Assembly (NCBI GenBank): GCA_016287975.1
Contig: JAEEXV010000418.1
Coordinates: forward strand, 1-24,095
Origin: Lentisphaeria bacterium
GTDB taxonomy: Bacteria > Verrucomicrobiota > Lentisphaeria > Oligosphaerales > Oligosphaeraceae
Reading direction: 5' to 3'
Length of the DNA: 24,095 nt
This document shows, piece after piece, positions 4,599 to 24,095 of this stretch (positions are counted from its first letter, which is position 1; the number at the start of each line of letters is the position of its first letter). Under the pieces are notes generated by a model. That model did no database searches and was not told where the DNA came from. It saw only the letters and a list, made by a program, of their open reading frames with translations. Made by a program: the position numbers and the translations under genes.

Positions 4599-4628
4599 CG
4601 CCGCCGCTTGTCCGTGGACTTCCCGCAA

Positions 4629-4651
4629 CGCCCCATTCCCCATACGGGGCG
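4629..4651. terminator. Weak hairpin between convergent nfnB and argB
   Basis: CGCCCC (4629-4634) can pair with GGGGCG (4646-4651) across an 11-base loop, in the 71-base spacer between the nfnB and argB stops. No T-run follows on either strand, so intrinsic termination is doubtful. It is the only structure seen there. Confidence 0.3.
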
Positions 4652-4669
4652 GCGATTGCCGCGGCCCGC

Positions 4670-5554
4670 CTATGGCAGGATCTGCGTGCCCACGCCAGCG
4701 TGGGTGAAGATCTCCAGCAGCAGGGAATGCTTGAGGCGCCCGTCGATCAGGTGCACCTGCCCGACGCCCGCCTCGATCGCCTCGCAGGCGCTGTTGAGCT
4801 TCGGCAGCATCCCGCCTGAGATGACACCCTCCTCCGCCAGTTTCGGGATCTCGCCGCAGCGGATGCTGGAAATCAGCGAGTCGGGATCCTTGGCGTCCCG
4901 CAGCACGCCAGGCACGTCGGAGAGGAAGACCAGCTTGCGCACCTTCATCTCGCGCGCGATCTCGCACGCCGCCATGTCGGCGTTGATATTGTAGGTGTCG
5001 CCCTTGAGGTCGGTCGCCAGCGGCGTGATCACGGGGATCTGCCGCCGCGCCAGAATCCAGTCCAGCTGCGGCGTGTCGACATTGACCACCTTCCCGACGA
5101 AGCCCAGGTCGACTGGCGCGTCGCTGCCCGCCACTTTCGTGGTGATGCGCTCGCAGCGCAGCACGTTCTTGCCCGAGACCGCCACCGCGTCCGTCCCGCA
5201 CTGTTCGCGCAGATACGAGACCAGCCCCGCGTTGATGTCCTGGTGGAGCACGCGGTCCACGACCTGGATCGTCGCCCCGTCCGTATAGCGCAGCCCGTTG
5301 ATGAACTTGACCTCGACATTCTGCTTCGCCAACTCCGCGCTGATGGCCTTGCCGCCGCCGTGCACGATGATCGGGCGCATCCCCGCGACCTGCATGAAGG
5401 CCACGTCCCGCAGCACGTCGTGCATCCGCACGGGATCCTCCATCGCGCTGCCGCCGAACTTCACCAGGACGGTGGAGCCGTGGAACTGCTGGAAATAGGG
5501 CAGGGCCTCGATGAGCACATCGGCCTTGAGTTGTTCGTTGGTGATGTCAGTCAT
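4670..5554 (-). CDS. argB: Acetylglutamate kinase (arginine biosynthesis)
   Basis: ArgB phosphorylates N-acetyl-L-glutamate with ATP, the second step of arginine synthesis, in the cytoplasm. The 294-residue protein shows the amino-acid-kinase core: VKFGGSAM with Lys32, the glycine loop HGGGKAI (65-71), the substrate arginine in GLRYTD (87-92), NINADMAA and GGMLPKLNSA. An extra N-terminal helix (about residues 10-24) and the C-terminal HSLLLEIFTHAGVGTQI signature are features of arginine-inhibited hexameric kinases, so feedback inhibition is likely (inference). The start lies 8 bases after the stop of the ClC gene, so the two are probably co-transcribed, an unexpected pairing. No good Shine-Dalgarno precedes the start, only an A-rich stretch. 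No other arg gene is in the window. Confidence 0.95.
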   Translation of the reverse strand: MTDITNEQLKADVLIEALPYFQQFHGSTVLVKFGGSAMEDPVRMHDVLRDVAFMQVAGMRPIIVHGGGKAISAELAKQNVEVKFINGLRYTDGATIQVVDRVLHQDINAGLVSYLREQCGTDAVAVSGKNVLRCERITTKVAGSDAPVDLGFVGKVVNVDTPQLDWILARRQIPVITPLATDLKGDTYNINADMAACEIAREMKVRKLVFLSDVPGVLRDAKDPDSLISSIRCGEIPKLAEEGVISGGMLPKLNSACEAIEAGVGQVHLIDGRLKHSLLLEIFTHAGVGTQILP

Positions 5555-5562
5555 GGTTTTTT

Positions 5563-21919: not shown

Positions 21920-21930
21920 GGTGGTGGATT

Positions 21931-22080
21931 CTGGGACATCTGGGACATCTGGGACATCTGGGACATCTGGGACATCTGGGACTTTCGGTCCCTTCGGTCG
22001 CTTCGGTCCCTTCGGTCCCTTGGGTCGCTTTGGTCCCTTGGGTCCCTTCGGTCGCTTCGGTCCCTTAGGTCGCTTCGGCC
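21931..22080 (+). repeat. 9-bp tandem repeat array spanning the atpA 3' end and atpA-atpB spacer
   Basis: On the plus strand five perfect CTGGGACAT units (21931-21975) and one variant CTGGGACTT are followed by ten TCGGTCCCT/TCGGTCGCT-type units with small changes (21985-22074) and a partial unit to 22080. On the atpA coding strand the second type reads GAA-GSG-ACC, in frame. The last codons of atpA (GAA GCG ACC) and its stop are part of the array: TAA at 22067-22065 is a GAA unit with one base changed. The same unit occurs at 12414-12458. Confidence 0.92.
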
Positions 22081-23855
22081 TTCCTGCGGGCCATCGCCTC
22101 GTGCACGCGGGCGATGGCGTCCAGGTCGGCGTGAACTCGCTGTTCGAGGGCGGTCATGGCGGCGGTGTCGTCGTTGGGGATTTCGGACTTCATGCGGTTC
22201 ATCCGCTCCAGGCTGGGGATGGCGCGGATCTCGACGAGAGTGGCGCCGTCGCGGATGAGCTGCCGCGCGCGGTCGATGAACCAGGCGAGCAGCGTCATCA
22301 TCCAGAGCTGCTTCTTCGGCGCGCAGTACATGTCGACGGCGTCAAAGGAGTTCTGCTGCAGGAAGGCGTTCTTGATGATCTCCGCCGCGAAGAGCGTCAG
22401 CCGCTGCGACTCGGGCAGCGCGTCGGGCCCGACGAGCTTCGCGATGCGCTGCAGATTGACCTCTTCCTGCAGGACGTTCATGAGGACGTCGCGCTGGTCC
22501 TTCCAGCCCAGGTCGTACTTGCGCCACCACGCCGCCGTCTCGGGCAGGTATTCGCTGTAGGAGTTGCGCCAGCTGATCGCGGGGTAGTGGCGCGCGTTGG
22601 CGAGGTCGCGGTCCAGTGCCCAGAAGCAGCGGATGAAGCGCGTCGTGTGCTGCGTGACGGGTTCCGAGAAGTCGCCGCCTGGCGGCGAGACCGCCCCGAT
22701 CACCGAGACCGTCCCCTCCCCGCCAGAAAGCACCGCAACGCGGCCCGCGCGCTCGTAGAAGGATGCCAGGCGGTCGGGCAGATAGGCGGGGAAGCCCTCG
22801 TCGGCGGGCATCTCCTCCAGCCGCCCAGAGAGTTCGCGCAGCGCCTCCGCCCAGCGCGAGGTCGAGTCGGCCATGACCGCGACGTCATACCCCATGTCGC
22901 GGTAGTATTCGGCGAGGGTGATGCCAGTGTAGATGGAGACCTCGCGCGCCGCCACGGGCATGTTCGACGTGTTCGCGATCAGGATCGTGCGCTCCATCAG
23001 CGAGCGCCCCGTGCGCGGGTCGACCAGCTGCGGGAACTCCCGCAGCACCTCGGTCATCTCGTTGCCGCGCTCGCCGCAGCCGATGTACACGATGATCTTC
23101 GCCTCGCACCACTTCGCGAGCGCCTGCTGCGTCATCGTCTTGCCCGTGCCGAAGCCGCCTGGAATCGCCGCCGCGCCACCCTTCGCCAGCGGAAAGAAGG
23201 TGTCCACCACGCGCAGCCCCGTCAGCAGCGGCGCCGACAGCGGCAGCCGCGACGCCGACGGGCGCGGACGCCGCACTGGCCACCACTGGAAGAGCCCTGG
23301 GCGGTATTCCGCGCCATCCTCGCCCTCCAGCACGCACAGTTCCGCGTGCCCGTCGTATTCCCCCTCGGGCACGATCGACTTCACCACGCCCCCCTGGCGC
23401 GGCGGCACCATCACCTTGTGCAGGACGCTCTCGGTCTCCTGCACCTCGCCGATCACCGCCCCCCCAGAAAGCCGCTCGCCGACCTTCGCCAGCGGACGGA
23501 AATGCCACTTGCGCGCGAGATCCAGCGGCGGCGTCTTCTCGCCGCGCGCGATGAACGCCCCCGACGCCTTCGCCATCGCGTCCAGCGGGCGCTGGATGCC
23601 GTCGTAGATCGTCCCCAGCAGCCCAGGCCCCAGGCACACCGAGAGCGGACGCCCCGTGCAGTAGACTGGCTCGCCTGGCGCGACGCCCGAGGTATTCTCG
23701 TAGACCTGGATGGTCGAGACGCCGCCGCGCACGCGGATGACTTCGCCGACCAGGCGGGCCTCGCCCACCTCGACGACCTCCAGCATGCCGACCTCCTCCA
23801 TGTGCACGGCCTCGACAATCGGCCCGTTGATGCGGATGATGGTGCCTTCGTTCAT
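22065..23855 (-). CDS. atpA: V/A-type ATPase subunit A (catalytic)
   Basis: This 596-residue catalytic subunit couples ATP synthesis or hydrolysis to rotation. It has the N-terminal barrel, the A-type bulge domain (about 110-190), a P-loop PGGFGTGKTMTQ (232-243), catalytic Glu262 in CGERGNEM, a Walker B strand VAVMADSTSRWAEALRE (325-341) and SPPGGDFSEPVTQ (390-402). The P-loop differs from the usual GPFGAGKT/GAFGCGKT by Gly-Gly and Thr, which keeps the lysine and threonine. GGAG lies upstream of ATG 23855, and the start overlaps the atpE stop by ATGA. The C-terminus ends in RRKAEAT, whose last codons belong to the 9-bp repeat array, so the tail may have been lengthened or shortened by repeat turnover. 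The operon order E-A-B-D matches Chlamydiae and spirochaetes. Confidence 0.96.
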   Translation of the reverse strand: MNEGTIIRINGPIVEAVHMEEVGMLEVVEVGEARLVGEVIRVRGGVSTIQVYENTSGVAPGEPVYCTGRPLSVCLGPGLLGTIYDGIQRPLDAMAKASGAFIARGEKTPPLDLARKWHFRPLAKVGERLSGGAVIGEVQETESVLHKVMVPPRQGGVVKSIVPEGEYDGHAELCVLEGEDGAEYRPGLFQWWPVRRPRPSASRLPLSAPLLTGLRVVDTFFPLAKGGAAAIPGGFGTGKTMTQQALAKWCEAKIIVYIGCGERGNEMTEVLREFPQLVDPRTGRSLMERTILIANTSNMPVAAREVSIYTGITLAEYYRDMGYDVAVMADSTSRWAEALRELSGRLEEMPADEGFPAYLPDRLASFYERAGRVAVLSGGEGTVSVIGAVSPPGGDFSEPVTQHTTRFIRCFWALDRDLANARHYPAISWRNSYSEYLPETAAWWRKYDLGWKDQRDVLMNVLQEEVNLQRIAKLVGPDALPESQRLTLFAAEIIKNAFLQQNSFDAVDMYCAPKKQLWMMTLLAWFIDRARQLIRDGATLVEIRAIPSLERMNRMKSEIPNDDTAAMTALEQRVHADLDAIARVHEAMARRKAEAT

Positions 23856-24094
23856 GATTCGCTATCTCCGCGTGATTCCGCGTCCGTCCCCAGCGGCGGG
23901 TTCAGGACCGCATCGGGGACGGTCTCCGCCAGCTCCGTGCGGAAGCGCTCGCGCAGCCGCTTCAGCCGCGCGGCGAAGGTGTTGTCGTAGAAGAGCCGCC
24001 CGTCTGGCGTCGCCACCCGTATGCCGCCGCCGATGCGCGGGTCGGCCTCGACGGCGCACTCCGCCGCCCCCGCGCCGCGCTCCCTGAGCCATGT
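23852..24094 (-). CDS. atpE: V/A-type ATPase subunit E, C-terminal part (start outside window)
   Basis: The last 80 codons of a gene run in from the right edge, with stop TGA at 23854-23852 overlapping the atpA start. The fragment contains DPRIGGGIRVATPDGRLFYD and then NTFAARLKRLRERFRTELAE, the conserved C-terminal head of V/A-ATPase peripheral-stalk subunit E, which caps the A3B3 head. The final residues (NPPLGTDAESRGDSES) are a variable tail. Position just before A fits the E-A-B-D operon order. An open frame in another phase over the same bases is not coding. Confidence 0.85.
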   Translation of the reverse strand, partial: TWLRERGAGAAECAVEADPRIGGGIRVATPDGRLFYDNTFAARLKRLRERFRTELAETVPDAVLNPPLGTDAESRGDSES

Positions 24095-24095
24095 C

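Follow-up and report, generated by a model that had tools for sequence, protein, structure and literature searches.

Avoidance of Type II restriction sites is a known phenomenon. In the parts of Rusinov et al. 2015 (PMC4687349) devoted to orthodox Type II systems, 850 of 1774 site-genome pairs are given as avoided against 3.9 % in controls, avoidance is described as stronger for long-lived systems with traces of lost ones, and CTAG is listed as under-represented in the majority of tested genomes whatever their systems. The cleavage rules of HpaII and MspI and a link to Vsr are set out in the relevant portion of PMC12907096. Here we describe the near loss of the palindrome CCGG from a 24,095-bp stretch of DNA (contig JAEEXV010000418.1, hereafter the window, meaning the whole stretch) of a Lentisphaeria bacterium. 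The window is a deep member of this known phenomenon and bears an unusually deep scar.

As in the Type II cases set out in PMC4687349, one palindrome is specifically low and the deficit is patchy among relatives, the cognate system being absent from some of the genomes that show it; long-lived or lost systems are invoked there. The window differs in depth, its observed/expected ratio (O/E) of 0.18, or 0.04 in 16 of its genes, lying far under the threshold of 0.78 given in that account, which is however stated in a different measure, Kr. It also differs in the word concerned, CCGG appearing there as an outlier that is over-represented in Helicobacter but being nearly absent here. The CTAG depletion of bacterial genomes likewise consists in a deep loss of one palindromic 4-mer and is found in the window too, but CTAG is low in most genomes of that account whereas CCGG loss is confined to certain lineages. 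A contig from an uncultured Siphonobacter (L041) shows a loss as deep as that of CCGG (1 against 46 expected), although of another word, GCGC, and in another phylum. No report on this lineage was found in the literature searched, though one may still exist.

Extent and specificity of the CCGG deficit

The window (GC 65.6 %) contains 31 CCGG, 21 within 4599-24095 and 10 to the left of 4599, against expectations of 279 from base composition and 176 from trinucleotides, the maximal-order Markov model. Only TTAA (2.6 expected, both strands) and CTAG rank below it by the Markov measure. As a synonymous-codon control we permuted codons 300 times within each of 20 genes, preserving protein and codon usage; these genes hold 26 CCGG against 171.9 ± 8.1 in the permutations (minimum 151; z -17.9). 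The near-absence of CCGG claimed in an initial annotation, made from the letters alone, is thus borne out by exact count, although its expectation of over 100 sites in the last block was too high, the values being 59 by base composition and about 30 by permutation means of four genes. Under the same permutation test the remaining low palindromes were GTAC (z -6.9), AGCT (-6.5), GGCC (-6.1) and ACGT (-5.3). GCGC (1.20) and CGCG (1.07) are at or above expectation; GGCC, which the initial annotation had called common along with them, falls somewhat short (0.63-0.75), though it is similarly low across most of the family. CTAG had an O/E below 0.5 in 58 of the 72 compared loci with at least 8 expected. 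By the Markov model the O/E of GTAC is 0.44 in the window (0.34 by permutation), 0.25 in G002 and 0.35 in both G018 and G029. We conclude that the depletion of CCGG is specific to one palindrome and goes beyond composition and codon use, which is confirmed by these controls.

The deficit is concentrated in 16 genes with 5 CCGG against about 139 expected (O/E 0.04), the 4 other genes having 21 against 33.3; this CCGG-keeping group was defined after the counts had been seen, and its p of 2.5e-11 is descriptive only. When 80 loci surrounding relatives of its phosphoglucose isomerase (PGI) were compared, the window had the lowest CCGG O/E, the next being 0.41 and 0.48; three family genomes found later have values below the window's.

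Relatives and candidate restriction systems

Across almost the whole protein, the PGI of the window shares 79-81 % identity with those of six genomes, two of which bear the labels goat abomasum and sheep rumen, and its named relatives include Victivallales and Lentisphaeria bacteria. In a PGI tree of 30 rows (27 of the 29 family genomes, the window and two outgroups) the window falls in a clade, A, with G001, G002, G003, G018, G019, G028 and G029 (support 100/99). The V-ATPase A subunit agrees: full-length matches have 82-85 % identity in clade A (five genomes) and at most 76 % elsewhere, where some short fragments reach 82 %. ArgB agrees modestly, six genomes of clade A giving 72-75 % identity and 462-478 bits against at most 437 bits elsewhere; G028 gave only a 41 % match. 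Judged from these protein comparisons, the organism is Victivallales-like.

We compared the CCGG O/E of the 29 family genomes using 3-40 kb per genome and omitting the all-N stretches L116, L119, L162 and L174. Values ran from 1.34 down to 0.02. Within its own PGI clade the window (0.18) stands against 0.94 in G001, 0.89 in G028, 0.83 in G019, 0.73 in G003 and 0.72 in G018, with G002 and G029 intermediate at 0.40 and 0.37 (0.46 and 0.38 in the larger sample below). A second group, clade B (support 88/89, or 97/92 when G021 is left out), comprises G020, G021, G022 and G023 at 0.44, 0.06, 0.08 and 0.02, and the remaining 18 genomes lie at 0.58-1.34. In a larger sequence sample, whose extra stretches came from contigs already matched in gene searches, G021 had 16 CCGG against 197 expected, G022 32 against 388 and G023 63 against 514; contigs C32 (53) and C44 (5) account for 58 of the sites in G023, the other six stretches having 5 against 400. 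The figure of 0.02 for G023 leaves out both contigs, whose inclusion gives 0.24 or 0.12. Deep depletion must therefore have been gained, or lost, on more than one occasion. A further palindrome that this family avoids is GATC, strongly depleted at an O/E of 0.11-0.39 in G020-G023, G002, G004, G018 and G019 (clade B 0.11-0.31), a depletion that the window (0.83) does not share.

The nfn genes at the left of the window differ in affinity from PGI, V-ATPase A and ArgB. For NfnA, identity is 90 % with G021, 88-89 % with G022 and G023, 83 % with G024 and G025 and 62-64 % with G001, G003, G018 and G019, and only 39-40 % relatives were found in G002, G028 and G029; NfnB, 90 % identical to G021, agrees. 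GC content steps near 4598 from 0.598 on the left to 0.670 on the right.

C5 methyltransferase matches were present in 17 of the 29 family genomes. The HpaII endonuclease family (PF09561) was matched in two of them, G021 and G005, in 4 of 197 genomes of the class and in 11 of 387 in the phylum sample. The deep relative G021 resembles the described HpaII system in having a full-length PF09561 endonuclease after an adjacent C5 methyltransferase of like orientation; RadC and Vsr genes lie downstream. The enzyme pair is of 39 % GC inside CCGG-poor DNA of 54-55 % GC, and from its full-length family matches the locus looks intact. A similar pair occurs in G005, whose CCGG O/E is 0.94, as a recent arrival would look. 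The MspI endonuclease family (PF09208) gave no match in the 29 genomes, but control genomes were equally silent, so that this is no evidence of absence. Median CCGG O/E was 0.83 in 12 HpaII-positive genomes and 1.0 in 28 negatives (Mann-Whitney p 2.6e-4, uncorrected for kinship). Three of the 12 positives (G103, G224 and G320) are partial endonuclease matches. The negatives, meaning genomes absent from the reported positives, were picked non-randomly from listings or round handle numbers, and came down from 34 stretches after dropping G198, G199, G204, G240 and G120 (no readable bases) and G220 (fewer than 10 expected). One HpaII carrier, G314 (L269, L270), has an extreme deficit of another palindrome, GGCC, at an O/E of 0.11.

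Two loci on the CCGG-bearing contigs of G023 were rejected as causes. G003, with CCGG at 0.73, has a 100 % identical copy of the endonuclease of the C44 restriction pair, so that the pair is a mobile element of recent arrival or sits on a stray contig; relatives lie on plasmids adjoining cytosine methyltransferases, and a comparison with solved structures gave just two weak ribosomal-protein matches. The C32 cluster (L166, 3512-9197) encodes a C5 methyltransferase, an 803-aa GHKL-type ATPase, a 560-aa Mrr/ResIII helicase-nuclease and a 201-aa protein without a match, on a contig with stretches of normal CCGG.

Selection, mutation and rival explanations

By codon phase the observed/expected counts of CCGG were 9/51, 11/84 and 6/35, about equally low, and nine of ten flank classes had an O/E of at most 0.25, the tenth, TCCGGA (3 against 4.5), being too rare to judge. 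The target is therefore the bare 4-base palindrome, and the flank classes give no support to a recognition site that is longer or degenerate. Ahead of GGN, the NCN codons of the 16 depleted genes ended in C in only 3 of 138 cases, compared with 130 of 186 ahead of GCN and 136 of 184 ahead of GAN, and in place of the C lost before GGN there stood G in 66 cases, T in 36 and A in 33. Proline CCG was used once in 123 cases before G[ACT]N and 96 times in 188 before non-G codons, and arginine CGG once in 186 after xxC and 40 times in 182 after xxG. The same deficit before GGN is seen in G023 (A 51, C 0, G 31, T 58; n=140) and in G021 and G022 together (A 96, C 2, G 46, T 86; n=230); it is not seen in four pooled control genomes, where C was kept in 209 of 481 NCN codons.

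These replacements bear on whether the sites were lost by mutation or by selection. Were an orphan or restriction-linked methyltransferase to make CCGG a hotspot of 5-methylcytosine deamination, sites should turn into CTGG and CCAG, and T does rise at NCN before GGN, about eightfold from 3 % to 26 % in the window and from 17 % to 41 % in G023, with CTGG at 1.23. At the same positions, however, A is up about sixfold and G about twofold, and losses did not run mainly to C-to-T and G-to-A products. Ala-Gly uses 14 GCA to 1 GCT, upholding the preference that the initial annotation had noted; CCG before G[ACT]N gives way mainly to CCC and not to the deamination product CCA, which is not raised in G023; CAGG/CCTG stands at 0.90 and ACGG/CCGT at 1.38; and G021 carries a gene of the Vsr family, which repairs the T:G mismatches of deamination. 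Deamination alone cannot yield A, G and CCC, although some share is possible as T and A rise most. As the main cause it is not borne out by the codon-pair replacements, and we hold it to be very improbable. Selection against the word itself fits better, because several synonymous replacements (G, T and A) are found and not only the C-to-T product; the earlier preference for a restriction or methylation target over pure deamination is supported by this mixture. A codon-pair or general bias against GC palindromes could be suspected from the mild shortage of GTAC, AGCT, GGCC and ACGT and from the low CTAG of most compared loci, yet CCGG lies far outside this palindrome background and is equally low in all frames, GCGC and CGCG are not equally depleted, and close relatives of similar make-up, G028 and G001, have CCGG at 0.89-0.94. 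With no frame dependence in the phase test, such a bias was rejected and has next to no probability.

We consider the deficit to be, with a probability of roughly 0.78, the result of prolonged selection exerted by a Type II restriction system that cuts CCGG (HpaII/MspI specificity) and is present or recently lost. Such a system, cutting unmethylated CCGG, would have been long resident in the lineage; with methylation lagging behind cutting, each CCGG would be a liability, so that mutations breaking it would be favoured on both strands, in any reading frame and with any flanks. Over time nearly all sites would go, codon choice would steer round CCGG and recently entered genes would still carry it. 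Selection of this kind would explain the specificity, the independence of frame and flanks, the replacement pattern and the patchy distribution, and the HpaII endonuclease-methyltransferase locus of G021 speaks for a restriction target rather than for one that is merely methylated. The window's lineage would then carry, or recently have carried, such a system, and the CCGG-keeping genes would be recent arrivals; that the cutter was HpaII-like, rather than another CCGG cutter, has slightly less than an even chance. Several observations weigh against this explanation. Pfam scans of the window genes found no restriction gene, and unlike in G021 the HpaII system was not seen in the window, G022 or G023, the last two being deeply depleted (32/388; 5/400 on six of eight stretches) with no HpaII endonuclease in the 29-genome search; in clade A, G002 and G029 gave no C5 methyltransferase match at all. 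Eleven of the 12 HpaII carriers are mildly or not depleted (0.59-0.97, including G005), and only G021 is deep. Intergenic DNA is less depleted than genes (5 CCGG against 13 expected). In nfnA, CCGG is absent from G021-G023 but occurs four times in the window, three times at positions where 0 of 5 relatives have it, which misfits a simple picture of avoiding lineages passing on CCGG-free genes.

Some of these points can be read in other ways. The CCGG-cutting system may have been lost, leaving an inherited trace that slowly refills, and in the comparisons given in PMC4687349 avoided sites do occur where the system is found only in relatives (43.3 % of 1930 cases with the system in another strain of the species and 18.4 % of 5162 with it in another species of the genus). 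G002 and G029 look like such relics, with an even intermediate deficit (0.46 and 0.38) and CCGG-free 2-kb windows numbering only 1 of 25 and 0 of 22. The 16 depleted genes of the window, however, leave little room for refilling at 5 of 139, any loss would have been recent, and we regard a refilling relic as rather doubtful. Several lineages of the family, including those of the window and of G022/G023, might instead be kept nearly free of CCGG by an active CCGG-specific system that is neither HpaII nor MspI and exchange genes preferentially, the nfn pair being common to the window and the CCGG-poor G021-G023 group and the missing word marking an exchange community, which seems to us a long shot. 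The nfn genes were either transferred or lie on a contig that is chimeric at that point. An assembly chimera, in which the left 4.6 kb comes from another organism and the contrast between the arms is technical, agrees with the divided NfnA identities and the GC step, but gene transfer accounts for the same facts, and we think a chimera unlikely. It would leave the principal result, the CCGG deficit, intact, the basis of which is 4670-24095, where PGI, V-ATPase A and ArgB all belong with clade A.

Features of the window and their remaining sites

Table 1 Features of the window with CCGG observed and expected by permutation
Feature	Coordinates	Strand	CCGG (observed vs expected)	Remarks
Left-end open reading frame (ORF)	1..1842	-	6 vs 8.0	No Pfam match; surface protein in the initial annotation; CCGG retained
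nfnB and nfnA	2323..4598	+	nfnB 0 vs 5.1; nfnA 4 vs 8.3	Closest to the G021-G023 group
CCGG-depleted block	4670..13362	mixed	5 coding vs about 68 (summed per-gene permutation means)	argB (-), ClC channel (-); Ddl, short ORF, M55 peptidase, GFO/IDH/MocA oxidoreductase, PGI, 5'-3' exonuclease domain (all +)
Intergenic stretch	13363..13696	.	3	CCGG at 13377, 13419, 13430; three copies of a hairpin-bearing repeat
Amidohydrolase; PfkB kinase	13697..14959; 14965..15846	+	0 vs 21.8	No CCGG
Glycosidase-like gene	15849..16751	-	8 vs 11.2	Weak GH32N/GH43 matches under curated cut-offs; CCGG retained
Exo_endo_phos family gene	16830..17552	+	3 vs 5.8	CCGG retained
Melibiase-family (alpha-galactosidase) gene	17549..19345	+	0 vs 13.3	No CCGG
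CCGG-free block	19356..23855	-	0 vs about 30	Usp 19356..19847; V/A-type ATPase D 19831..20499, B 20507..21919, A 22065..23855

The sites listed in the initial annotation proved correct: there are none in 17549-24095 or in argB, six in the left-end gene, and coding CCGG within 4670-13362 only at 7191, 8421, 11882, 11966 and 12516. Its list was incomplete: it missed the eleven sites that the GH43/32-like and Exo_endo_phos genes carry at 16042-17127 (11 against 17 expected), and its three nfn sites are in fact four, all in nfnA. There are also five intergenic sites, two of which (10688 and 10697) lie outside the intergenic stretch of Table 1. The glycosidase-like gene has family homologues in 23 of the 29 genomes at an identity of at most 50 %.

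Two repeat regions accompany these genes. At 13469-13689, before the amidohydrolase gene, a 78-nt repeat occurs three times, 64 and 79 nt apart, each copy with the hairpin TGCCAGCGGGC-TTGCCCGCTGGCA; a hairpin at about 13415-13440 has CCGG where the neighbouring repeat hairpins have CCAG/CTGG. Between the V-ATPase A and B genes, and reaching into the A gene at its 3' end, two 9-nt tandem arrays abut at 21930-22078, TCTGGGACA in 5.9 copies and TTCGGTCCC in 10.6 copies.

Restriction-site avoidance is both deep and clean in the window; the lineage is uncultured, and its close relatives extend from no avoidance to nearly no sites, a range usable for gauging how long a system must reside to purge its site and how fast sites return after its loss. 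Genes that keep CCGG within one genome are candidate recent arrivals, and the missing word may act as a gene-transfer clock. We predict that HpaII and MspI would hardly cut the DNA of the organism, and that introducing CCGG-rich DNA into it may prove difficult.

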